From the NCBI RefSeq assembly GCF_026261605.1, contig NZ_CP102486.1:682001-746000 (forward strand): a stretch of 64,000 nt of DNA. Reading direction: 5' to 3'. Positions within the stretch are counted from its first letter, which is position 1. Each line of letters starts with the position of its first letter. The notes under the pieces were generated by a model that was not told the origin of the DNA, did no database searches, and saw only the letters and a program-made list of their open reading frames with translations. Source of the stretch: Dechloromonas sp. A34 (lineage in GTDB: Bacteria > Pseudomonadota > Gammaproteobacteria > Burkholderiales > Rhodocyclaceae). Shown here in pieces: positions 47,775-61,133 of this stretch. Made by a program: the position numbers and the translations under genes.

Positions 47775-49138
47775 TCAGGCGACCACAGCCTTGAGGGCCA
47801 GGCCGATTACCGCGCTGGCCACGATGACATGGATCACCTGCATCTTGTAGCGGAAGAGCGCGATCGCGGCGGCCAGCGCGATGACGGCCGAGAGACCGTC
47901 GAAACTGCCGGCAAAGCCCTGCGGCCAGAAGACGTGATAGGCAAAAAACAGCGCCAGATTGAGGATGACGCCGACCACGGCGGCCGTGATGGCGGTGAGC
48001 GGAGCAGTGAATTTGAGGTCGTTGTGGGTGGTTTCGATCAGCGGCGCGCCGGCCAGGATGAAAAGGAATGAGGGCAGGAAGGTGAACCAGGTGACCAGGG
48101 CGGCCGCTAGCACGCCGGCCAGGAACAGGCTATCCGGCCCGAAGATCGCCTGTCCGTAGGCGCCGACGAAGCCGACGAAGGCGACGACCATGATCAGTGG
48201 TCCCGGTGTCGTTTCGCCGAGAGCCAGGCCGTCGATCATCTGGATCGGGGTCAGCCAGCCATATTGCCCGACTGCGCCCTGATAAACGTAGGGCAGCACG
48301 GCATAGGCGCCGCCGAAGGTGAGCAGGGCGGCCTTGGTGAAGAACCAGCCCATCCGGGTCAAGGTGTGATCCCAACCATGGACGGCGGTCAGCAGCCCCA
48401 TCGGGATCAGCCAAAGCAGGGCGCCGACAACGGCGACCCGGAGCAGCCTCTGCCAGGTGAACAGGGCATGCGGCGGGGTCGGGGTGTCGTCGTCGATCAG
48501 GGCGCGGCCAAACGACGAGGCGGCCTGGCCATGGCCGCCGCCGGCGGCGAAGCGCCCGGGGCGAGCCGTCCGCCGAAGTAGCCGATCAGGGCGGCGGCGG
48601 CGACGATGGCCGGGAAAGGCACGTCGAAGGCAAAGATGGCGACGAAGGCGGCGCCGGCGATCGCCCACAGGGCGCCGTTCTTCAGTGCGCGGGAGCCAAT
48701 GCGGTGGGTGGCCTGGACGACGATGGCGGTGACCGCGGGCTTGATCCCGAAGAACAGTCCGGCAACCAGCGGCGCCTCGCCGAAGGCGACATAGACCCAG
48801 GACAGCGCGATCAGGATGAACAGCGAGGGCAGCACGAACAGGGTGCCGGCGACGATGCCGCCCGCGGTTCGGTGCATCAGCCAGCCGATGTAGGTGGCCA
48901 GTTGCTGGGCTTCCGGGCCGGGCAGCACCATGCAGTAGTTCAGGGCATGGAGAAAGCGCCGTTCAGACAGCCAGCGCCGGTTCTCGACCAGTTCCTGATG
49001 CATCAGCGAAATCTGCCCGGCCGGGCCGCCGAAGCTAATGAAGCCGAGCTTGAGCCAGAAACGGAAGGCTTCCCAGAACGGCACCCGGGCCGGGGTGGCG
49101 TCCGGTGACTCGGTCACGGTGGCGGTAGGGCGGTTCAT
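47775..49138 (-). pseudogene. chrA: chromate transporter ChrA, frame broken once
   Basis: Two-domain CHR-family inner-membrane transporter for chromate efflux. The first frame (49138 to about 48560) encodes the N-terminal CHR domain ([38 protein letters not shown], two stretches). The second frame encodes the C-terminal CHR domain (FFTKAALLTFGGAYAVLPY, LALGETTPGPLIMV). One missing base at about 48554-48561 (a CCCGGGG stretch) restores one frame of 454 residues, the family's normal length. ATG at 49138. No chrB regulator is near. The break may be a sequencing error. Confidence 0.87.
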
Positions 49139-49169
49139 GACGACGCTGTCGCTTTCTGAGGGGGGCTGT

Positions 49170-49183
49170 CGGTTCGCGAACCG
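49170..49183. promoter_or_regulatory. perfect palindrome upstream of chrA
   Basis: CGGTTCGCGAACCG, a 14-base perfect palindrome 32 bases before the chrA start, in the divergent gap with the lipid cluster (49139-49393). It is a candidate operator; nothing else in the gap is recognised. Confidence 0.45.
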
Positions 49184-49393
49184 GACGGCGCGCGGCTGCA
49201 AAGTCGTAAGGATGCCAGAAGCGCGCTTGCCGGACGCAAGTTGCTGAACGAGCAGATCAGCTTGCCGGCGGCCCCCAGGTGCGGCAGTGCTTCGTACGCT
49301 CGGTTCATCGCCCGCAAGGGGCGGATTTCCAATGCCGATGTCCTTGCGTTTGGCATGCTATAGTCAGTCCCGGCCATTGTTCCCGTCGCTTTG

Positions 49394-50008
49394 ATGATCA
49401 GCATCTATCAGCTCAAACCGCGCTTTCAATCATTACTTCGCCCTCTGGTCAGGCAACTGGCGGCGGCGGGCGTCACCGCCAACGCGATCACCCTGCTGGC
49501 CATGGCGATCTCCTGCGCGCTGGGCGGCGTGCTGCTCGGCGCGACCGCGCCGTCACTGTTCCTGCTCCTGCCCCTGTGGATGTTTCTGCGCATGGCGTTC
49601 AACGCGGTAGATGGCATGCTGGCCCGCGAACACGGCCAGCAGACCCGCCTCGGGGCCTATCTCAACGAACTCAGCGATGTCGTTTCCGATGCCGCCCTGT
49701 ATTTGCCCTTCGTTGCCGTTGCCCCCTTCGGCTGGGCCAGCGTCGGGGCGGTGATCTTCCTTTCCAGCCTCTCGGAAATGACCGGAGCGCTGGCGCCGAT
49801 GGTCGGTGCGCCGCGCGCCTACGACGGCCCGATGGGCAAGAGCGACCGGGCGCTCGTCTTCGGCGGGCTGGGCTTGTGGCTGGGCCTGGCGGGCAGCCTG
49901 CCGGCGTGGGCGGTCTGGCTGATGCCGGCGGTGTCGGCGCTGATCCTCCTGAATATTGTCAACCGTATCCGCAGTGGCTTGCAGCAGGCCGCTGACCTTT
50001 CTTCCTGA
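49394..50008 (+). CDS. CDP-alcohol phosphatidyltransferase family protein (YnbA-like)
   Basis: A 204-residue polytopic membrane enzyme of the CDP-alcohol transferase family, which joins an alcohol to a CDP-lipid. The signature region is N70-x2-D73-G-x2-A-R-x8-G87-x3-N91-x3-D95. The usual family motif has four Asp; here the first and third positions are Asn. It begins a run of plus-strand genes resembling E. coli ynbABCD. The ATG at 49394 (MISIYQL) is chosen; an upstream TTG is in frame. The acceptor alcohol is unknown. Confidence 0.9.
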   Translation: MISIYQLKPRFQSLLRPLVRQLAAAGVTANAITLLAMAISCALGGVLLGATAPSLFLLLPLWMFLRMAFNAVDGMLAREHGQQTRLGAYLNELSDVVSDAALYLPFVAVAPFGWASVGAVIFLSSLSEMTGALAPMVGAPRAYDGPMGKSDRALVFGGLGLWLGLAGSLPAWAVWLMPAVSALILLNIVNRIRSGLQQAADLSS

Positions 50009-50017
50009 GGGTTCAAG

Positions 50018-51779
50018 ATGACCATTCCCCGCCAGGCAAGCGAACACACTTTTTCCACCCACGACAATGTCGAGTTGTTCTATCGCCACTGGCCAGCGAC
50101 CGGGCCGAGCGGCGCGGCGCTGTTCTGCTCTTCCATCGCGGTCACGAGCATTCGGCGCGGATGGCCCATCTGGTGGACGAACTGGATTTGCCGGGTTTCG
50201 ACTTCTTCGCCTGGGATGCCCGGGTCATGGCCATTCGCCCGGGGAGCGCGGCTATTCGCCCGGGTTCGCGACCTCGGTGCGCGATGTGCAGACTTTTGTC
50301 GATCATCTCGCTGCTGTCCACGGCCTTGCCGAGGAAGATCTGGCCATCGTCGCGCAAAGCGTCGGCGCCGTCCTGATCTCCACCTGGGCCCACGACTACG
50401 CACCGCGGATTCGCTGCCAGGTGCTCGCTTCGCCGGCTTTCAAGGTCAAGCTCTACGTGCCGCTGGCCCGGCCGGGCTTGCGCCTGATACAGCGCCTGCG
50501 CGGCAATTTCTTCGTCAATAGTTACGTCAAGGCCAAGTTCCTGACCCACGATCCGGCCCGCCAGTCGTCGTACAACAACGACCCGCTGATCAGTCGGCCG
50601 ATCTCGGTCAATATCCTGCTCGATCTGTATGCGGCTGCCGAGCGGGTGGTCGCCGATGCCCAGGCGATCACCGTCCCCACCCAGTTGCTGATCTCGGGCG
50701 CCGACTGGGTGGTGCATCACGCCCCACAGCACGAGTTCTTCGAGCGCCTCGGCGCGCCGGTCAAGGAGAAGCATGTCCTTGACGGCTTCTACCACGACAC
50801 GCTGGGCGAACTGGATCGCCAGCGGGCCACCGCCCCGGCCCGGCGTTTCATTCTCGAGGCTTTTGCCCAGCCCGTGCAACGCCCCGACCTCAACGACGCC
50901 GACCGCCGCGGGGCGACTCACGACGAGTCGCTGGCCCTGGCCCGGCCGCTGTCGCTGCTCAGCCCCCGCGGCCTGTACTGGGCGGCGACCCGCTTCGGCA
51001 TGAAGATCGGCGGCCTGCTCTCGGCCGGCGTGCGCCTCGGCCACGCCACCGGCTTCGATTCGGGCAGCACGCTCGATTACATCTACCGCAATACGCCGAC
51101 CGGACGCGGGCTGCTCGGCCGGATGATCGACAGTAACTACCTGAACGCCATCGGCTGGCGCGGCATCCGTCAGCGCAAGCTGCATATCGAGGAATTGCTG
51201 CGCCGGGCAATGGATGTCCGGCATGGCGAGCAAGGCGATATCCATGTCATGGATATTGCCGCCGGTCACGGGCGTTACGTGTTGGAGGCTTTGGAGCAGT
51301 ACCCGCATCGGCCGGCCTCGATCCTGCTGCGCGATTTCAGCGATCTGAACGTGCGGGCAGGCGCGGCGTTGATCGAACAAAAGGGGCTGGCCGGCATCGC
51401 CCGCTTTGTCCCCGGCGACGCCTTCGATGCCGCCTCGCTGGCGGCGGTGACACCGAAGCCCACGATCGGCATCGTCTCCGGGCTTTATGAACTGTTTCCG
51501 GAAAACGATGCGGTACGCCGCTCCTTGGCCGGGCTGGCGGCCGCCGTCGAACCGGGCGGCTTTCTGTTGTACACCGGGCAACCCTGGCATCCGCAACTCG
51601 AACTGATCGCCCGCGCGCTGACCAGCCATCGGCAAGGGCAAGCCTGGGTCATGCGTCGCCGGACCCAGGCCGAAATGGATCAGCTGGTGGCCGAGGCGGG
51701 GTTTGAAAAAATCGAGCAGCGGATCGATCAGTGGGGCATTTTCACGGTCTCGCTGGCCCGTCGCCGCGCCAGCGCATGA
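50018..51779 (+). pseudogene. alpha/beta hydrolase - SAM methyltransferase fusion (YnbC-like), frame broken twice
   Basis: The N-terminal half is an alpha/beta hydrolase (lysophospholipase-like). It starts MTIPRQASEHTFSTHDNVEL, continues in a second frame as VLLFHRGHEHSARMAHLVDELDL, read in pieces, then in a third frame as GHGHSPGERGYSPG. The nucleophile is probably the Ser in VAQSVGAVL. The C-terminal half is a class I SAM methyltransferase fold (VMDIAAGHGRYVLEAL). One missing base at about 50114-50121 and one at about 50221-50224 restore 587 residues, close to E. coli YnbC as I recall it. It starts nine bases after the CDP-alcohol transferase gene and ends in an ATGA overlap. Both breaks may be sequencing errors. 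Confidence 0.85.
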
Positions 51780-53130
51780 ACGAAAGCGCGGCGACTGCAC
51801 TGGTCGCGCCGGCGACATCGGCGGAGGCCCTGCCCTGGCGACGCGGTGTCGTCTGGCTGCTCTTTCTCGGTCCCTTCTTCTTTCTTTCCTACGGCTTCGC
51901 CAACTGGTGGGCGGCAACCCAGGCCGTTCCCGGCATCATGCTGTTCGACTGGGAGCGCCATATCCCGTTTGTGCCGTGGACCATCGTCCCCTACTGGTCG
52001 ATTGATCTGCTCTACGGTCTATCTTTTCTGCTCTGCCGCAGCTGCCGGGCGGTCGATACGCATGCCCTGCGTCTGCTGACGGCGCAACTAATCTGCATCA
52101 GCTGCTTCATCGTTTTTCCGCTGCACTTCAGTTTTCAACGACCGGCCACGAGCGGTCTGTTCGGCACGATGTTCGATGTCCTGGCCGGTTTTGACCAGCC
52201 TTTCAATCAGGCCCCGTCCTTGCACATCGCGCTGCTGGTCGTTCTCTGGGTGCGGTTTGCCGAAGCCAGCCGCGGTTTCTGGCGTCTGCTGACGCATGGC
52301 TGGGCGGGGCTGATTGGGCTCTCGGTGTTGACCACCTACCAGCATCACTTCTTCGATGTGCCGACCGGGGCGCTGGTCGGTTTGCTCTGCCTCTGGCTGT
52401 GGCCGGATGACGCGCTCGCCAGGCCGCGGCGGTGGTCTTTCACTCCGTCCCCGGCGCGCCGCCGGATCGCCGGGCTTACCTGGCGGCGGCGCTGCTCTGC
52501 ATTGCTGCGGGCTCGATCGGCGGATTCGCCTGGTGGCTGCTCTGGCCGGCCGTCGCCCTTGGCCTGGTCGGCCTGATCTATCTTGCCTTGGGGGCGGCCG
52601 GCTTCCAGAAGCGGGAAGCTCGTCTCAGCCTTGCCAGTAGCTGGCTGTTGGCGCCTTACCTTGCCGCCGCCTGGCTCAATTCGCGGCTATGGACGTCGCG
52701 CCAGCCGGCTCCGGTGCAGGTTGCCGATGGTGTCTGGCTGGGTCGCATGCAGACCCGGCGTGAGATGGCAACGGGGAGATTCGCCGGCCTGCTCGATTTG
52801 ACGGCGGAGTTGCCGGCGCCACAGGGGGGCTGGTCCTATCTCAATCGGCCTTGGCTGGATCTTGTGCCGCCAACGAGCGCGGAGCTGGTTCTGGCCGCCG
52901 ATGCCATCGACACGCTACGTCGGCAAGGCCCGTTGCTGGTCTGTTGCGCCCTCGGCTACTCGCGCAGTGCCGCGGCGGTCGCCGCCTGGCTGCTGCGGAC
53001 CGGCCGGGCAGGCGGGATCGACGAAGCCGTTCAGCTGATCGCGGCCTGCCGTCCGCCGGTCGTACTCGGAGCGGCGCATCGCGCGGCTTTGCAGGGGGCA
53101 CTAGCCGATCCGAAGGCGGCGCATGGCTGA
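51776..53130 (+). pseudogene. PAP2 phosphatase - dual-specificity phosphatase fusion (YnbD-like), frame broken once
   Basis: The first frame (from the ATG at 51776) encodes a membrane PAP2-type phosphatase with the PSLH motif (FNQAPSLHIALL) and the HHFFDVPTG block carrying the catalytic His. The second frame adds more membrane helices and a dual-specificity/Tyr phosphatase domain with C-x5-R (CALGYSRS). One missing base at about 52425-52434 joins the frames as ARPRRVVFHSV, giving 451 residues, similar to the single-chain YnbD of E. coli. Alternatively these are two genes. It overlaps its upstream neighbour by ATGA and the next gene by eight bases. Confidence 0.82.
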
Positions 53131-53599
53131 GCCGAGTGCCGGGCAGCGGGCCAGCCTGACGGCACTTTGGCTCGACGGGGGGCGGAGCCTGGACCGGCTC
53201 AGCACGGCCTTGACGCTTTTGGCATTGGCAGCGGCGCTGTGGAGCGGGGGCAACGGGGTGGCGCAGTTCATTTTGTTGTTGGGGGTGTTCCTGGGCGGCC
53301 TGGAAAATATTTACGCTCTGCGCGTCGCCTTCGATCAACGCATCTTTGCCGCCTGGGCCGGGCAGTGGCCGGTAACGGAAAGCTTCGCGCCGGATGTCGC
53401 CCTGGCCGAATTCGACCAGGCATTGCTGCGCATGCATCTGCGTCCGGCCACGGCGCTGGCCGCGCGCAGCCTCGATGAACGGATTGCCGGGGCCTGCGCC
53501 TTGCTGCGCAAACAGGGGCTCTGTCTGGCCTGCCAGTTCTTTGTCTTGCTTACCGCTGCCAGCCTCAAGCTGATCGGGCTTTTCGGTCATGGCCTTTGA
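53123..53599 (+). CDS. small membrane protein of unknown function in the lipid cluster
   Basis: A 158-residue protein with two hydrophobic stretches near the N-terminus (about 25-57, split by a short GGNG turn) and one near the C-terminus (about 132-153), and a soluble middle. It overlaps the upstream YnbD-like gene by eight bases and the acyltransferase gene by eleven, so it is co-translated with the lipid genes. No family recognised; it has no counterpart that I recall in the E. coli ynb cluster. Confidence 0.75.
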   Translation: MAEPSAGQRASLTALWLDGGRSLDRLSTALTLLALAAALWSGGNGVAQFILLLGVFLGGLENIYALRVAFDQRIFAAWAGQWPVTESFAPDVALAEFDQALLRMHLRPATALAARSLDERIAGACALLRKQGLCLACQFFVLLTAASLKLIGLFGHGL

Positions 53600-54215
53600 A
53601 CACTTAACGGCTGCCGCCATCTGTGCCTTCGCCAAGGCGGTGACCGGGGTGCGTGCGCTGTGGCGCGGCAGTTCGCCGACTGCCCGGCAGCGCATCTACT
53701 TCGCCAACCACACCAGCCACGGCGATTTCGTCCTGATCTGGGCAGCCCTGCCTGGCGCATTGCGCGGCCGGACGCGGCCGGTGGCTCGGGCCGATTACTG
53801 GCAGCGCGGTGCATGGCGCCGCTTCATCGTTGAACGGGTTTTTCGCGGCGTGCTGATTGCCCCGGCCGCCGGTCGTCACCATGCCTTCAATCCGCTCGAA
53901 CAGATGAACGCGGCGCTGGCCGAGGGCGATTCGCTGATCGTTTTCCCCGAAGGCACCCGCAACCCCGGCGTGGGACTCCTGCCCTTCAAGAGCGGTCTCT
54001 ACCATTTGGCCCGGGCCCATCCCGAGGTCGAGTTCATTCCGGTCTGGATCGAAAATCTGGGGCGGGTGATGCCCAAGGGGGCCTTGATTCCGATTCCGCT
54101 GTTATGCACACTGTGTTTCGGTCAGGCCCTCGAAATCCGGCCTGACGAGAGCAAGCCCGACTTTCTCGAACGCGCCCGGGCAAGCATGCTGGCGCTGGCC
54201 CCTCCCGGCGACTAG
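53589..54215 (+). CDS. lysophospholipid acyltransferase family protein (PlsC-like)
   Basis: A 208-residue acyltransferase with the H-x4-D motif (NHTSHGDF) and the FPEGTR motif (IVFPEGTRNPG), which form the catalytic and glycerol-phosphate-binding sites of 1-acylglycerol-3-phosphate acyltransferases. It is short but complete for the core fold. Overlapping the preceding small gene and 5 bases before the CDP-DAG synthase-like gene, it could supply phosphatidate to that enzyme. The donor (acyl-ACP or acyl-CoA) is unknown. Confidence 0.9.
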   Translation: MAFEHLTAAAICAFAKAVTGVRALWRGSSPTARQRIYFANHTSHGDFVLIWAALPGALRGRTRPVARADYWQRGAWRRFIVERVFRGVLIAPAAGRHHAFNPLEQMNAALAEGDSLIVFPEGTRNPGVGLLPFKSGLYHLARAHPEVEFIPVWIENLGRVMPKGALIPIPLLCTLCFGQALEIRPDESKPDFLERARASMLALAPPGD

Positions 54216-54220
54216 AAACG

Positions 54221-55165
54221 ATGAATCCTCAGGAAACGCTCATTTCGGTGTTCGGCGGCGTTTTCGCCCTGCTGCTGGTCGCCAGCGGCATCGGCGCGGC
54301 GCTCAAATTCCGCCTCGCGCCGGGCCAGGTCAGTGCCACGATCGACAACCTGAACGCCCGCATCAAGGCATGGTGGGCGATGATCGGCCTGCTCGCCCTG
54401 GCTTTCTGGGTCGGGCCGCTGGGCATCATCCTGTTGTTCGCCTTCATTTCTTTTCAGTGCCTGCGCGAGTTCATCTCGCTGACCCATACCCGGCGCGGCG
54501 ATCACCAGGCGCTGGTCTGGTGTTTCTTCTTCTTTCTGCCGGTGCAGTATTTTCTGATCGCCTCCAACTGGTATGGCCTGTTTTCCATCCTGATCCCGGT
54601 CTACGCCTTCCTGCTGCTGCCGATTGCCGCCACTTTGGGCAGCGATACTACCCGTTTTCTCGAACGCGCCGCCAAGATGCAATGGGGCCTGATGATCGGC
54701 GTCTATTGCCTGTCGCACGTGCCGGCGTTGATGACGCTGGAAATCCCCGGCTACGAAGGGCGCAATGCGCTGCTGATCGCTTTTCTGGTGCTGACCGTGC
54801 AGTCCAGCGACGTCTTCCAGTATGTATGGGGGAAACTGCTCGGCAAGCGCAAGATCCTGCCCGCGATCTCGCCCTCGAAGACCCTGGAGGGGCTAATCGG
54901 CGGGGTCCTGACCTCGACCGCGGTCGGCGCTGCCCTATGGTGGATCACGCCGTTCAACCCCTGGCAGGCGGCTCTGATCGCCCTGACCATCAACATGATG
55001 GGCTTTTTCGGCGGCCTGGTCCTCTCGGCGATCAAGCGCGACCGCGGGGTCAAGGACTGGGGCAGCATGATCGAGGGTCATGGCGGCATGCTCGACCGGG
55101 TCGATTCGATCAGCTTTTCGGCGCCGATTTTCTTTCACATCGTCCGTTACTGGTGGGTTCCCTGA
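54221..55165 (+). CDS. phosphatidate cytidylyltransferase family protein (YnbB/CdsA-like)
   Basis: A 314-residue polytopic membrane protein that should make CDP-diacylglycerol from phosphatidate and CTP. The CdsA signature region is present near the C-terminus: SPSKTLEGLIGG, followed by LVLSAIKRDRGVKDWG and GHGGMLDRVDSI with the conserved Asp residues. Its product is the expected substrate of the CDP-alcohol transferase that heads the cluster. It most resembles the E. coli paralogue YnbB in context. A housekeeping cdsA would be expected elsewhere in the genome. Confidence 0.92.
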   Translation: MNPQETLISVFGGVFALLLVASGIGAALKFRLAPGQVSATIDNLNARIKAWWAMIGLLALAFWVGPLGIILLFAFISFQCLREFISLTHTRRGDHQALVWCFFFFLPVQYFLIASNWYGLFSILIPVYAFLLLPIAATLGSDTTRFLERAAKMQWGLMIGVYCLSHVPALMTLEIPGYEGRNALLIAFLVLTVQSSDVFQYVWGKLLGKRKILPAISPSKTLEGLIGGVLTSTAVGAALWWITPFNPWQAALIALTINMMGFFGGLVLSAIKRDRGVKDWGSMIEGHGGMLDRVDSISFSAPIFFHIVRYWWVP

Positions 55166-55206
55166 GCCGGCCCCTTATCCACAACACCCTTCCGAAAGGA
55201 CAAAGC

Positions 55207-55800
55207 ATGCGAAATTCCCTCCTGGTCTTTCTGCTGAGCCTGGTGCTCGGTACCTCTCTGGCTTTTGGCGAAGACGAGCGCGCCGCTGATCGCCAGCAAT
55301 TGCTGGGCATCCTCGGCGACATCGAGCACGGCATCAACGATGCCAATATCGAACTGATGGTCAGGCATATCGACGACAAAGCCGTCGTCACCTGGCTCAA
55401 TGCCGAAGTCTCGCAAGGTCCGGATGGCGTGCGTGCCTACTTCAAGCGCATGGTCGGCAGCGGGCCGGATACCGTGCTCAGCAAGTATCAGACGCACCCG
55501 AAGATCAGCCAGCCGGCGATATTCTACGGTGACGTGGCGGTGGCTAACGGGACGACCGAAGACGAGTTCACGCCGCACCGCCGTTCCGTTTTCAACTTCA
55601 GTTCGCGGTGGACGGCGAGCCTGCGCAAGGTCGACGGGCAATGGAAGATCATCGCCCTCAATCTGTCCACGAATACCTTCAACAATGCGCTGATCAGCGA
55701 ACTCGAACGCTTTGCCCTGCTCACCGGTGTCGGCGGCTTGCTGGGCGGCCTGTTGCTGGCCGCCGCCTGGGCTTATTTCCGGCGCCGCCGCCCGGTGTGA
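55207..55800 (+). CDS. secreted or membrane-anchored NTF2-like (SnoaL/DUF4440-type) protein
   Basis: A 197-residue protein with an N-terminal signal (MRNSLLVFLLSLVLGTSLAFG), a domain resembling the NTF2-like fold (LGDIEHGINDANIELMVRHI, KVDGQWKIIALNLS) and a C-terminal membrane segment (about 170-190) followed by a basic tail. It would place the folded domain in the periplasm. It starts 41 bases after the CdsA-like gene, so it may belong to the lipid operon. No enzymatic role can be given. Confidence 0.78.
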   Translation: MRNSLLVFLLSLVLGTSLAFGEDERAADRQQLLGILGDIEHGINDANIELMVRHIDDKAVVTWLNAEVSQGPDGVRAYFKRMVGSGPDTVLSKYQTHPKISQPAIFYGDVAVANGTTEDEFTPHRRSVFNFSSRWTASLRKVDGQWKIIALNLSTNTFNNALISELERFALLTGVGGLLGGLLLAAAWAYFRRRRPV

Positions 55801-55803
55801 GGA

Positions 55804-56145
55804 CTAGGCCTTCTTGACGAACTCCGACTTCAGTTGCATTGCGCCGATGCCGTCGATCTTGCAGTCGATGTCGTGGTCGCCATCGACCAGGCGGATGTTC
55901 TTGACCTTGGTGCCGACCTTGACGACCGATGACGAGCCCTTGATCTTCAGGTCCTTGATCACCGTGACGCTGTCGCCGTCCTGAAGCAGGTTGCCGTTGG
56001 CGTCCTTCCAGACTCGCGCCTGCTCGGTGTTGGCGGCCGCCGCATCCTGACTCCATTCATGCGCGCACTCCGGGCAGACGAACATGTTGCCCTGCTCGTA
56101 GGTGTATTCGGAGCTGCATTGGGGGCATTTGGGCAAATCGCTCAT
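55804..56145 (-). CDS. yjdM: zinc-ribbon PhnA/YjdM-family protein
   Basis: A 113-residue protein with an N-terminal zinc ribbon (CPQCSSEY and CPECAHEW) and the conserved C-terminal domain ([40 protein letters not shown]; two stretches). This family is named after phnA, but it is not part of the phosphonate lyase and its function is unclear. Convergent with the NTF2-like gene. Confidence 0.93.
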
Positions 56146-56158
56146 GGTGTTTTCCTTT

Positions 56159-57850
56159 TCAGTAATCTTCTTCAGAGTTGCCCATCAGGTTGGGCAGCAG
56201 GATATAGGCGCGCTTGAGGGCCGAGGAGAGGTCGGGGCAGACGTTGTCGTCGCCCAGGTGATCGACGAAGCCGGAGCGATAGAGCAGCGAACCGGGTTGT
56301 GAATTGAGACCGCAGACGAGCAGCGTACAGCCGCGCTTGTGCAGCTTGTCAAGCAGGTTTTCCAGGCCCTCGAGGCCGGTGGTGTCGAGCTGGATCAGTT
56401 GCGTCATGTCGAGGATGACGACTTCCGGGTGGCCGGCCGCCGGGTCGAGTAATACTTCGAGTTTGTTCACGGCACCGAAGAACAGCGAGCCGAACAACTG
56501 CCAGGCGGCAACGCGCATCGTGCCGTCCGGGTAGAGGAATTGCGGCTCGCTGGCTTCTTCGCGCAGATGCCGGCGTTCGACGCGGGTCAGTTCCGACATT
56601 CGGTAGATGAAGAACAGGCTGGCCAGCACCATGCCCAGTTCGACGGCGATGGTCAGGTCGAAGACGACAGTGACGAAAAAGGTGGCGAGCAGGATGACCC
56701 GGTAGTTGTAGGAGAAACGGCGCAACTTCTTGAATTCGTGCCATTCGCCCATATTGATGGCGACCACCATGACGATCGCCGACAGCGTGGCGAGCGGCAC
56801 GTAGGAAGCGAGCGGGGCGGCGATCAGGACGATGCCAAGCAGGACGAGGGCATGGATGATGCCGGCGATCGGCGTGCGGCCACCGGACTTGACGTTGGTT
56901 GTCGTGCGGGCGATGGCGCCGGTCGCTGCAAAACCGCCGAAGAGCGGGGCGGCGATATTGGCCAAGCCCTGAGCGACCAGCTCCTGGTTGGGGTCGTGGC
57001 GGTCGTCGATCTGGCCGTCGGCGACGCGGGCCGAGAGCAGCGACTCGATGGCGCCGAGCAGGGCGATGGTGATGGCCGGCGGGATCAGCTTGCCGAAATC
57101 GTGGATCGACAGGTCGGGCAGGCCGAAATTGGGCAGTTCCTGCGGAATGCCGTTGAAGCGGCTGCCGATGGTTTCGACCGGCAGGTCGAACAGGAAGGCG
57201 GCCAGGGTGCCGATCAGCAACACGGCGAGCGGTCCGGGGGCGCGGCGCAGTACGGCAATGCGCTGGGCCAGTCGATTGTAGGAGAGCAGGAAAACGAAAC
57301 AGGCGGTAGCCAGGGCCAGGGTCGGCAGATCGACGGTGTGGGCGTTGGCGGCCAGGGTCTGGATGCGGTGAAAGAATTCGGCCGGCAGGTTGTCGATTTT
57401 CAGGCCGAAGAAGTCCTTGATCTGGGCGAGGAAGATGACGACGGCGATGCCGTTGGTGAAGCCGATGACGACGGTGATCGGGATGAAACGGATCAGTTGC
57501 CCCAACCGTGCCAGGCCCATGGCGAGCAGAAAAATGCCGGCGAGAATGGTCGCCCCCATCAGGTTGGCGAAGCCGTGCATGGCGACGATGCCGTACACGA
57601 TGGGGATGAAGGCGCCGGTCGGGCCGCCGATCTGCACCCGCGAGCCGCCGAACGCCGAGGTGATCAGGCCGGCGACGATTGCGGTCCAGATGCCGGCGGC
57701 CGGCGAGCACCCCGAGGCGATGGCGAAGGCCATGGCGAGCGGCAGGGCGAGGACGCCGACCGTGATCCCCGAAGCCAGATCCTTGCCGAATTGCGCCCGG
57801 TTGTAGCCTGGCAGACAATCCAGCAGCTTGGGGTGGAAGGCGATTTTCAT
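56159..57850 (-). CDS. SulP-family anion transporter with STAS domain
   Basis: A 563-residue inner-membrane transporter: a membrane domain of about 12-14 helices ([35 protein letters not shown]) and a C-terminal cytoplasmic STAS domain ([27 protein letters not shown], split at the acidic core). Family members carry sulfate, bicarbonate or dicarboxylates; the substrate cannot be told from sequence here. Divergent from an RHH protein gene, with a 104-base gap containing repeats. Confidence 0.94.
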
Positions 57851-57905
57851 GGCATGCGCTCGAAGGGTAAGCGCAGGATTATATGAGCGCCCAATGATTG
57901 GTCAA

Positions 57906-57924
57906 TGTTAATCGTATGTTAACA
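57906..57924. promoter_or_regulatory. TGTTAA repeats upstream of the RHH gene
   Basis: Two direct copies of TGTTAA (57906-57911 and 57917-57922), 11 bases apart start to start; the second is part of the palindrome TGTTAACA (57917-57924). Ribbon-helix-helix proteins bind such spaced repeats, so self-control, and control of the divergent SulP gene, is plausible. A further GATTC/GAATC pair lies at 57931-57952. Confidence 0.45.
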
Positions 57925-57954
57925 TCGTGAGATTCGTATTAAAAAGAGAATCCC

Positions 57955-58149
57955 ATGGAGAACCGCACTGCGCGCCTGACCATCCTGATCGATCCACGCA
58001 AGAAGAAGATCTTCGAGGAAATCTGCGCCGCCAATGATCTGACGCCCTCGCAGGTTGTGCGCCGCCTGGTTCGTCAGTACATCATCGACAATGCCGGCAA
58101 CCGCGAGTTGCCGGAGTGGCTGAAGGCGGCCGGCAAGAGCGCCGAATAA
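57955..58149 (+). CDS. small ribbon-helix-helix DNA-binding protein
   Basis: A 64-residue protein with the RHH pattern: a short beta strand (RTARLTILIDPRKKKIFEEI), a first helix, and a second helix beginning LTPSQVVRRLVRQYIID. Such proteins dimerise and bind short repeats. No toxin gene is adjacent in the usual antitoxin-toxin arrangement; the next gene is convergent and membrane-like. It may repress itself and the divergent SulP gene. Confidence 0.8.
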   Translation: MENRTARLTILIDPRKKKIFEEICAANDLTPSQVVRRLVRQYIIDNAGNRELPEWLKAAGKSAE

Positions 58150-58150
58150 T

Positions 58151-58483
58151 TCAGTCCTGCCCGGCCTCGGGGGTCTTCCGCACCTTGTCCGGGTGGTGGG
58201 CTGCGATGTAGGCATCGTAGCGCCCCTGCATTTCCGGTGCCTGTTTGGCGATTTCGCGCAGGATGCGGGCGACCGCCCAGATCATGACGACCGCACCACC
58301 GGCCGTGCAGGCCACGGCTTCAACGGCCGACGCCGGAAAGTTGGTGAGGATCGCCCCCTTGCCAGCGGCAAACCAGCTGGCGCCAATGCCGACGCAGGAC
58401 AGTCCGAAAACATCGACCAACGCATAGAGAAAAATCGGTCCGGTCAGGCGCGGCCGGGGCGGGCGTAGTGGCGAATTGAACAT
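58151..58483 (-). CDS. small membrane protein of unknown function
   Basis: A 110-residue protein with two hydrophobic segments (about 14-35 and 50-73) and a charged C-terminal tail ending KTPEAGQD. The ATG at 58483 is chosen since the upstream extension is in an AT-rich non-coding region. No family recognised. Its stop is one base away from that of the convergent RHH gene. Confidence 0.65.
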   Translation of the reverse strand: MFNSPLRPPRPRLTGPIFLYALVDVFGLSCVGIGASWFAAGKGAILTNFPASAVEAVACTAGGAVVMIWAVARILREIAKQAPEMQGRYDAYIAAHHPDKVRKTPEAGQD

Positions 58484-58788
58484 GGCTGGCGGTCGTCCGT
58501 GATATGGGGCGGTTATTTTGCGGTAGGTAGCAGCGTAATGCGCAACCCGTGAATCTAATCTTGTAAAAGACTTGACAAAGGGAATGTCAAGACTACGACT
58601 TATGCACAGTGGCCGAGTTGACATTGGCGGGGTTCGTGTGCCGCTATGCCGGATTTGACATATCTGGCTGTATTTTATTAATTGCTTTTAAATCAGTTGG
58701 TTAGAAGTGCGCTCAGTTTTCGGGCGGGGTAAGGAAAAGCCTTGTGGCACCGTGACTTAGCGTAAGGCTCCACGATTCATTCACAGAC

Positions 58789-58811
58789 TTATCCACAGAT
58801 TTTGTGGATAG
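58789..58811. promoter_or_regulatory. inverted pair of DnaA-box-like sites
   Basis: TTATCCACA and, five bases on, TGTGGATAG. They form an 8-bp inverted repeat TATCCACA / TGTGGATA. The first is a perfect E. coli-type DnaA box. Could bind DnaA; no oriC-linked gene is near. Confidence 0.5.
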
Positions 58812-58899
58812 ATTGAAAAGAGCAAAGTCAGGGGTGGCATTGGGGTGTTAACTTAAAGTGTTACATGAGGTTTGTTGCGGTTTTGTTGCAGCGCAACAA

Positions 58900-58926
58900 G
58901 GAATGGCCCGCTCGGCGAGCCATTCC
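58900..58926 (-). terminator. terminator-like hairpin after metG
   Basis: On the minus strand, GGAATGGC-t-CGC / GCG-g-GCCATTCC: an 8-bp stem, a T.G pair and 3 further bp with a CGA loop, 14 bases past the metG stop. A second small hairpin (GTTGC/GCAAC) follows. The T tract is weak. Confidence 0.5.
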
Positions 58927-58939
58927 GTTCGGCATCGAT

Positions 58940-61030
58940 TTATTTAACTCGCATTCCTGGTTGAGCGCCGGAATCGGGCGCGAGCAGGAAGAGGCCCGGT
59001 GTTTTTCCATCCGTATCGGAAGCGGCCAGCACCATGCCTTCGGACAACCCAAATTTCATCTTCCGCGGTGCCAGATTGGCGACCATCACGGTCAGGCGGC
59101 CGATCAGCTGGGCTGGATCATAGGCCGCCTTGATGCCGGCGAAGACATTGCGTGTTCGCTCGTCGCCGATGTCCAGCGTCAGGCGAACCAGCTTGTCGGC
59201 GCCTTCGACGTGCTCGGCATTGGCGATGCGCGCGATGCGCAGGTCGACCTTCATGAAGTCGTCGATCGTGCACAGCGGCCCGGCAGCGACTTCGGCGCTG
59301 GCTTCCTTCTGCTGATGCTCGGCGTGGCGTTGCGGCGATTGCGCCTCGGGGGCGGGGGCCAGCGACTCCTTGTTGGCTTCGACCAGCTTTTCGATCAGCT
59401 TGGGATCGACGCGGGTCATCAGGTGCGCGTAGGCGTTGATGCCATGGCCGGCGGCGAGCAGACTTTGGGCGTCGGTCCAGGCCAGGGGCGCGATGTTCAG
59501 GAAGGTTTCGACCTTGCCGGCGAGCACCGGCAGGATCGGCTTCAGGAGCACGGTAAGCAGGCGGAAGAGGTTCAGGGCATTCGAACAGGCGGCATGCAGT
59601 TCGACTTCCTTGCCTTCCTGCTTGGCCAGTTCCCAGGGCTTGACGCTATCGACGTACTGGTTGGCGGCGTCGGTCAGGGCCATGATTTCGCGCATCGCCT
59701 TGGCGAATTCGCGGGCTTCGTAGAGTTCGGCGATGCGCGGTGCGGCTTCCTGGATGGCCTTGATCGCCGGCAGGTCGGCGGCAGCCGGGGCGAGCTGGCC
59801 GTTGAAGCGCTTGGCGATGAAGCCGGCCGAACGGCTGGCGATATTGACGTATTTGCCGACCAGGTCGGAATTGACCCGGGCGCCGAAATCTTCCAGGTTG
59901 AGGTCGATGTCTTCCATGGTCGCCGACAGCTTGGCGGCGTAGTAGTAACGCAGCCATTCCGGGTTCAGACCGGTATCGAGGTAGCTTTGGGCGGTGATGA
60001 AGGTGCCGCGCGACTTTGACATTTTTGCGCCGTCCACGGTCAGGAAACCGTGGGCGAATATCTTGGTCGGCGTGCGGTAGCCGGCATGGGCCAGTTCGGC
60101 CGGCCAGAACAGGGCGTGGAAGTAGAGGATGTCCTTGCCGATGAAGTGATAGAGCTCGGTCGTCGAATCCGGCTTGAAGTATTCGTCGAAGTCCAGGCCG
60201 TTCTTGTTACAGAGGTTCTTGAAGGAGCCCATGTAGCCGATCGGGGCGTCGAGCCAGACGTAGAAGTACTTGCCCGGGGCATCGGGGATTTCGAAACCGA
60301 AATACGGCGCGTCGCGCGAAATGTCCCAGTCGGTCAGCTTGTTCTCGCCGGGGGCGCCCAGCCATTCCTGCATCTTGTTGGCGGCTTCCGCCTGCAGCAC
60401 GCCGTTGTCGCGGCAGGTGTACTGGCGCAGGAAAGCCTCGCAGCGCGGGTCGGAGAGTTTGAAGAAGTAGTGCTCGGAAGTGCGCAGTTCCGGCTTGGCG
60501 CCGGAGACCGCCGAATAGGGCTCGATCAGGTCGGTCGGCGCGTAGGCGGCGCCGCAGACTTCGCAGTTGTCGCCGTACTGGTCCTTGGCATGACATTTCG
60601 GGCATTCGCCCTTGATGAAGCGATCGGGCAGGAACAGTTGCTTGACCGGGTCGTAATACTGCTCGATGGTCCGCGTCTCGATCAGGCCGGCCGCCTTGAG
60701 CTTGCCGTAGATGTCATTGGCGCAGTCGCGGGTTTCGTCGGAATGGGTGCTGTAGAAATTGTCGAAACCGACGCCGAAGCCGGCGAAATCGCGGGCATGT
60801 TCGCCATGGACGCGGGTGATCAATTGTTCCGGCGTGATCCCTTCCTTCTCGGCGCGCAGCATGATCGGCGTGCCATGCGTGTCGTCGGCGCAGACGTACC
60901 AGCATTCGTTGCCGGCCATTTTCTGGAAGCGCACCCAGATGTCGGTCTGGATGTATTCGACCAGATGGCCGAGGTGAATGGCGCCGTTGGCATAGGGCAG
61001 GGCAGAGGTGACGAGGATTTTGCGCGGCAT
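58940..61030 (-). CDS. metG: methionine--tRNA ligase
   Basis: Class I synthetase charging tRNA-Met, 696 residues. HIGH-type motif in [14 protein letters not shown]; a four-Cys zinc knuckle ([18 protein letters not shown]); KMSKS in [13 protein letters not shown]; and a C-terminal tRNA-binding OB domain ([14 protein letters not shown]). The extra C-terminal domain is that of the long MetG form. ATG at 61030, divergent from apbC with a 184-base gap. Confidence 0.97.
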
Positions 61031-61133
61031 GGGAGAGGGCGGGCTGAAAAATAAAGCGCAATTTTACCGCGAGCGACCGGAGCGCGCCGTTGTTAGCGAA
61101 TTGCGCAATAATCGCGTGACCGGCCGGCAAGGC

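Follow-up and report, generated by a model that had tools for sequence, protein, structure and literature searches.

A fuller, six-gene form of the ynb cluster in Dechloromonas sp. A34 and the membrane protein that accompanies it

Relatives of the cluster and its make-up

The closest described counterpart of the gene cluster considered here is ynbABCD of Escherichia coli K-12 (b1408-b1411), a set that to our knowledge is uncharacterised and has no assigned product. Homologues of all four genes lie within a 64,000-nucleotide stretch of Dechloromonas sp. A34 (contig NZ_CP102486.1, positions 682,001 to 746,000; hereafter the window), in a run of six genes arranged head to tail on the + strand at 49394-55165 with spacings of -11 to +9 nt. 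We call these genes A, C, D, M, P and B in their order along the DNA, the first four letters of the alphabet corresponding to ynbA to ynbD, while P encodes an acyltransferase and M a membrane protein. The six-gene cluster is a real and widespread, fuller form of the known ynb set, and the strongest new points are that M is tied to the set, that D and M are paired, and that A carries an Asn-Asn site. Identity to the E. coli proteins is 50% for A, 40% for B and 58% for C, and in the case of D it is 45% in the PAP2 half and 40% in the dual-specificity phosphatase (DSP) half. The E. coli set also shares with the window the domain fusions of C and D and the Asn-Asn signature of A.

Related clusters occur on plasmids. 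Those of Shinella zoogloeoides, Rhizobium sp. WL3 and Burkholderia ambifaria carry the same six families as the window, with M directly after D and annotated just as a hypothetical protein; relative to the window layout, A lies on the opposite strand in Shinella and Rhizobium, as does the P-B pair in Burkholderia. The enterobacterial plasmid clusters, in Citrobacter sp. TSA-1 and in E. coli 2015C-3121 (typed conjugative), have A, B, P and C adjacent on one strand and follow the order A-B-P-C-D, unlike the A-C-D-M-P-B of the window. In the Citrobacter plasmid, D is followed by a 136-aa protein that is weakly M-like (hhalign 75%; HMM E 0.014 / 0.095), and in the E. coli plasmid just a 75-residue start of D is present, followed by insertion-sequence genes. 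Pseudomonas aeruginosa PA2536-PA2541 presumably holds the same six gene kinds in the same order. The features of the cluster in the window are as follows.

49394..50008, + strand: A, YnbA-like CDP-alcohol phosphatidyltransferase, 204 aa; PF01066 at 32.1 bits (cut-off 22)
50018..51779, + strand: C, YnbC-like alpha/beta hydrolase fused to an S-adenosylmethionine (SAM) methyltransferase; PF12147 at 503 bits and PF12146 at 183 bits, both on the main frame 50067-51779
51776..53130, + strand: D, YnbD-like membrane PAP2 plus dual-specificity phosphatase; PAP2 at 31.5 and DSPc at 33.6 bits, in two frames
53123..53599, + strand: M, 158-aa membrane protein with three predicted transmembrane helices; no Pfam/NCBIfam family
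53589..54215, + strand: P, PlsC-type lysophospholipid acyltransferase, 208 aa; PF01553 at 56.5 bits, with NHxSHxD and FPEGTR
54221..55165, + strand: B, CDP-diacylglycerol (CDP-DAG) synthase of the CdsA/YnbB type, 314 aa; PF01148 at 230 bits

A preliminary description of this DNA had named all of these parts, and each is where it placed them; the overlapping frames are likewise real, amounting to 4 nt for C/D, 8 nt for D/M and 11 nt for M/P, with the start codon of D (51776), and hence the C/D overlap, read from the sequence. It had also described C and D as whole enzymes, which does not hold for this copy, as both are frame-broken here and open in L003, a Betaproteobacteria metagenome-assembled genome that was the sole relative returned by the related-locus search for M. 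L003 matches the window in gene content and gene order, with every frame open and a C relative of 586 aa, and the window is collinear with it from 49343 to 61071. Compared with L003, the window lacks single bases at two places in C, near 50104 and near 50223, and at one place in D, near 52474, upstream of the DSP domain; these deletions are unbalanced, the missing base not being compensated by nearby gaps. A, M, P and B are open frames in the window. The frames of C and D were left unmended, and L003 and other relatives were used in their place. The synteny break at 49343 falls just before A, at the cluster's left edge, and because collinearity starts only there, the left flank of the window, with its chromate transporter, is not common to L003.

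Distribution, gene order and the tie of M to the set

With PF12147 (ynbC) as the marker for the cluster, and with the window's own genome included in each sample, ynbC was found in 12/100 relatives, in 16/369 genomes of the class (13 above cut-off) and in 27/398 genomes of the phylum, so its distribution is patchy. In the plasmid collection, 30 of 72,556 records have a PF12147 match at E 1e-30 or better, their carriers including Shinella, Rhizobium, Sinorhizobium, Burkholderia, Citrobacter and E. coli, with some records being chromosome-sized. We take the set to be accessory and mobile between genomes. One genome, G064, holds three PF12147 copies (L042, L044 and L045), each with different neighbours.

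The surroundings of all strong ynbC matches were fetched, and 56 loci, an uneven draw made up of overlapping samples, E. coli K-12 and seven plasmid-collection records, were scanned with profiles of the six genes. Weak matches of the class sample (L026-L032) and a weak second match in genome G828 (L079) were left uncounted, and L038 was excluded as a copy of L003. The commonest layout seen is A-C-D-M-P-B on one strand, in 29/56 loci; these comprise 26 plain cases, two with a spurious extra M match, and the window, whose D is split over two frames (the extra M matches, in L046, L089 and L097, are negative-scoring fragments). The P-B pair is inverted in three loci and A in two. Other layouts are A-B-P-C-D (three loci), A-B-P-C-D-M (two) and A-B-C-D (two, E. 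coli K-12 and one other), and the remainder are partial or reordered. P is present in 42/56 loci. These counts reverse the initial picture of a rearranged ynbABCD into which an acyltransferase and a membrane protein had been inserted: the window has the commonest layout, the four-gene set of E. coli K-12 is the shorter form, and "inserted" has the wrong polarity since clusters of this type usually contain M and P. Recent insertion of P and M was therefore rejected, both being normal members in the loci compared. Absence of the two extra genes from relatives with the cluster, which the preliminary description had named as a refuting outcome, is not what was seen; M accompanies ynbC in 12/12 positive relatives and 26/27 positive phylum genomes, and the count for P is that given above.

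At a threshold of E 0.1, the M of the window has no match in Pfam or NCBIfam. For the family of 23 members there is no Pfam/NCBIfam family for the group, with scattered matches in one or two members (best E 0.0005), and no PDB relative was found by profile up to E 1. A profile was made from these 23 M proteins, which were taken from clustered M genes. It matches exactly the same 12/100 relatives as ynbC, that is, all 12 ynbC-positive genomes and 0/88 others, and in the phylum sample 26 of the 27 ynbC-positive genomes as against 0/371 others. Of the candidates from the first look, these searches scored only a subset (no more than 9 per genome in the phylum sample and no more than 39 in the relatives), and absence here means not found. 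The sole ynbC-positive phylum genome without M, G741, shows A and C but no other cluster gene on the stretch that was fetched. M is thus a real partner of the gene set, found only with the set in the sampled genomes.

The link to D is closer still. M lies directly after D in 42 of the 49 loci that have D (two of which, L117 and L119, hold pieces of D only), and the 7 loci that lack D showed no M. A profile trained solely on M proteins found by BLAST picked up M in 14 loci that had not contributed to it, each time beside D, and in genome G248, D and M stand together some 43 kb from A-C-P-B. These observations suggest that M may be a partner of D, as a subunit, an anchor or a regulator. Residues D71, D98 and R120 of M are invariant in 23/23 members, and R115, L101 and L127 are kept at 90% or more. 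Judging by the hydropathy of the L003 protein, M would have three membrane helices, and its conserved charged residues would fall in a long loop between helices 2 and 3; the loop holds 6 Lys/Arg and would be cytosolic. The structure model is all-helical but of low confidence (mean pLDDT 60, from a two-sequence alignment).

Catalytic residues and neighbouring genes

The canonical signature of CDP-alcohol transferases, DxxDGxxARx8GxxxDxxxD, contains four Asp residues. By profile, A is a member of the PF01066 family with a variant signature, NxxDGxxARx8GxxxNExxD, in which the first and third canonical Asp are replaced by Asn (N71 and N92, L003 numbering). The replacement is seen in 43/43 relatives, E. 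coli YnbA included, and in the A of the window. It is also present in all seven plasmid-collection loci, six by a strict pattern and that of Fusobacterium by a loose pattern, its Arg being replaced as well. At the remaining six signature positions the canonical residue is retained in at least 41/43 relatives, and R142, K150, R153 and R192 in 43/43. The three other members of the CDP-alcohol transferase family found in the genome have Asp at both places.

Both profile comparison and PDB matching place A closest, among characterised enzymes, to the phosphatidylinositol-phosphate and archaetidylinositol-phosphate synthases (PIPS and AIPS), whose curated models are its nearest and are matched by 20/20 members; pssA and pgsA models match more weakly. 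Unlike these enzymes, A has Asn for two signature Asp and falls below the curated cut-offs. The best PDB matches are solved PIPS chains, with the profile aligned over most of its length, and the alignment places the invariant R153 and R192 of A on PIPS Arg residues that we take to bind the acceptor phosphate, which favours a phosphorylated acceptor. The products of PIPS and AIPS carry a second phosphate.

Catalytic residues are also conserved in the other enzymes (residue numbers of C and D are those of the family conservation comparison). The hydrolase triad of C, placed through alignment to a monoacylglycerol lipase, is conserved at S115 in 46/47 and at D230 and H260 in 47/47 relatives, and its SAM site at D413 (47/47) and at G417 and G419 (46/47); monoacylglycerol lipases are the closest solved structures of the hydrolase half (E 2.4e-20). 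The DSP domain of D has the Cx5R and the general-acid Asp about 30 residues upstream by which dual-specificity phosphatases are recognised, with C406, R412 and D377 in 41/41 relatives, and its best PDB match is DUSP23 at E 1.4e-5, with PTPMT1 at just E 0.064. In the PAP2 domain, H165, H205 and D209 are kept in 41/41. The classical PAP2 motifs, Kx6RP, PSGH and SRx5Hx3D, are nevertheless not found intact in a 17-row alignment: the Lys position is an invariant Pro116, PSLH stands for PSGH, and the Arg of the third motif is absent in 17/17 while both His and the Asp remain. The Pfam families PAP2 and PAP2_3 fit D to a similar extent (16 and 15 of 17 members, respectively), and the residue pattern of this half is reminiscent of members of the inositol-phosphoryl-transferase type. 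The structure model of D is poor, with a mean pLDDT of 41 from three alignment rows. In P, the residues of NHxSHxD and FPEGTR are conserved in 35-36/36 relatives, and NHx4D, FPEGTR and PF01553, the marks of PlsC/AGPAT enzymes, are all found. In B, the residues of SPxKT, SxxKR, KD and HGGxxDRxDS are conserved in 42/42, giving the combination of PF01148 and C-terminal signature expected of CdsA. One further member of the CDP-DAG synthase family lies elsewhere in the genome.

The cluster is followed, 41 nt after B, by one more gene on the same strand.

55207..55803, + strand: N, exported SnoaL-like protein with a C-terminal transmembrane helix; optional neighbour, not core; weak SnoaL matches

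All six N-positive genomes among the 100 relatives are also ynbC-positive. N was nevertheless rejected as a seventh core gene, because ynbC is missing from 3 of the 4 phylum-sample genomes with an N match and because N adjoins the cluster in just 6/46 other loci (L003, L044, L048, L051, L053 and L054), sometimes on the opposite strand. Distant relatives of N in L113 (4630-7249) and L114 (22-1442) adjoin genes named by eye, from their translations, as fatty-acid-desaturase-like, and that in L113 is also beside another PAP2-like protein; these neighbourhoods are possibly a different lipid-modification cluster. L119, the Moraxella osloensis plasmid pNP7-2, carries a variant set: after the methyltransferase come a patatin-like phospholipase and an SDR enzyme, B and fragments of D lie close by, and a transposase stands in between. 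A defence system was considered and rejected, since there was a single weak match (mad2, E 0.0007, to C) and no system was found.

A proposed lipid pathway and its alternatives

The gene content, the order, the conserved catalytic residues, the co-occurrence of M and the D-M linkage are observed; from them we infer the substrates, the order of steps, their sidedness and the role of M. On this basis our preferred reading, to which we give a probability of about 0.42, is that the operon encodes a dedicated line for assembling and remodelling a membrane phospholipid, with M as the partner of D. P would acylate a lysolipid to phosphatidate, which B would activate to CDP-DAG. A would then transfer the phosphatidyl group onto an alcohol, which most likely carries a phosphate, yielding a phosphatidyl-X-phosphate. 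The DSP domain of D could strip the phosphate on the cytosolic side, while the PAP2 domain would act on the opposite face of the membrane, with M serving D as subunit, anchor or regulator. C may cleave an acyl or ester bond and methylate the lipid or its head group, and any lyso product left by C could be re-acylated by P. The phospholipid pathway of the preliminary description therefore stands insofar as content, conserved order and catalytic residues make up a coherent gene set; "self-contained" was too strong, as the acyl and acceptor substrates must come from elsewhere, and its "alternative phospholipid" can be put forward only as a suggestion, as a product cannot be read from sequence.

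Several observations weigh against this proposal. With Asn for two canonical Asp, the activity or substrate of A may differ or be lost, and the A of the window scores below the NCBIfam equivalog cut-offs of both inositol-type models (64.8/180 and 45/170 bits). By our reading of the alignment, a third basic PIPS residue, presumably Lys135, has no counterpart in A. Inositol-1-phosphate synthase (PF07994) was not found in 43/43 carriers searched, these being 43 of the 45 strong carriers, with the less complete G004 and G438 left out; the same search matched 5/14 known genomes used as a positive control, 3 above cut-off. Inositol-1-phosphate made by that synthase is therefore unlikely as the acceptor of A, and was rejected. 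The cluster of E. coli K-12, in the order A-B-C-D as compared with A-C-D-M-P-B in the window, has no M and no P. The M profile was in part matched to its own training set, which holds 10/12 of the matches in the relatives and 9/26 of those in the phylum, leaving 2 and 17 outside. M is moreover fast-evolving and much less constrained, with mismatches to L003 of 40/44/56 by codon position. Finally, since C and D are frame-broken in the window, this particular copy may not work.

There is also a more ambitious version of the proposal, which we regard as doubtful. The product would be an undescribed bacterial phospholipid, made by an A with a rebuilt metal site (the two invariant Asn) and an acceptor of its own; M and D would together constitute a novel two-component enzyme, either a lipid phosphatase or a head-group transferase, whose active sites lie on the two faces of the membrane; and the set would move between plasmids and chromosomes.

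Among the alternatives, one in which the cluster feeds a glycolipid survives best, though we consider it unlikely. B would make CDP-DAG for an MPIase-like glycolipid, and A would attach a sugar phosphate. E. coli YnbB is reportedly linked to MPIase, and B is a YnbB relative, at the 40% identity given above; the choice of acceptor for A leaves room for a sugar phosphate, which would fit the putative phosphate-binding site. However, no glycosyltransferase is annotated inside the cluster in the six annotated plasmid regions, although no profile search was aimed at one, and the hydrolase-methyltransferase would be left without a role.

It is rather less probable that these are spare household enzymes, with A making phosphatidylglycerol-phosphate or phosphatidylserine, B and P acting as stress isoenzymes, and C and D recycling. 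The genome does contain further members of both families, three CDP-alcohol transferases and one CDP-DAG synthase. Yet those three transferases keep the canonical Asp that A does not, the models for the corresponding enzymes, pssA and pgsA, match A more weakly than the inositol-type models do, and the distribution is patchy, at 12/100 relatives.

The frame breaks raise another possibility, that the cluster is decaying in this genome or that the local sequence contains errors, so that the window would be uninformative on function; we hold this to be improbable. It would account for the three unbalanced one-base deletions in C and D, and the chromate-transporter gene just upstream (47775-49201, - strand) is spread over two overlapping frames, one domain each, which looks like a further frame break near those of C and D. 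On the other hand, A, M, P and B are open, and where A, C, D, P and B differ from L003, they do so mostly at third codon positions. That bias speaks for past constraint and is no argument against recent decay.

Least probable of all is that A is a pseudo-enzyme or lipid-binding scaffold in a set whose main work is to remodel (C, P) and dephosphorylate (D) lipids that already exist, for although Asn occupies two signature positions in 43/43, the near-complete retention of the other six signature residues and of all four basic residues would be unusual in a dead enzyme, and B, the maker of its presumed substrate, travels with A.

The phospholipid assembly and remodelling line with M as partner of D thus remains the reading we favour. 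Whatever the product, the six-gene form offers a better handle on it than the four-gene ynb set, as it adds two components, P and M, and ties M to YnbD. It also draws attention to YnbA itself, which departs from its family at two active-site positions.

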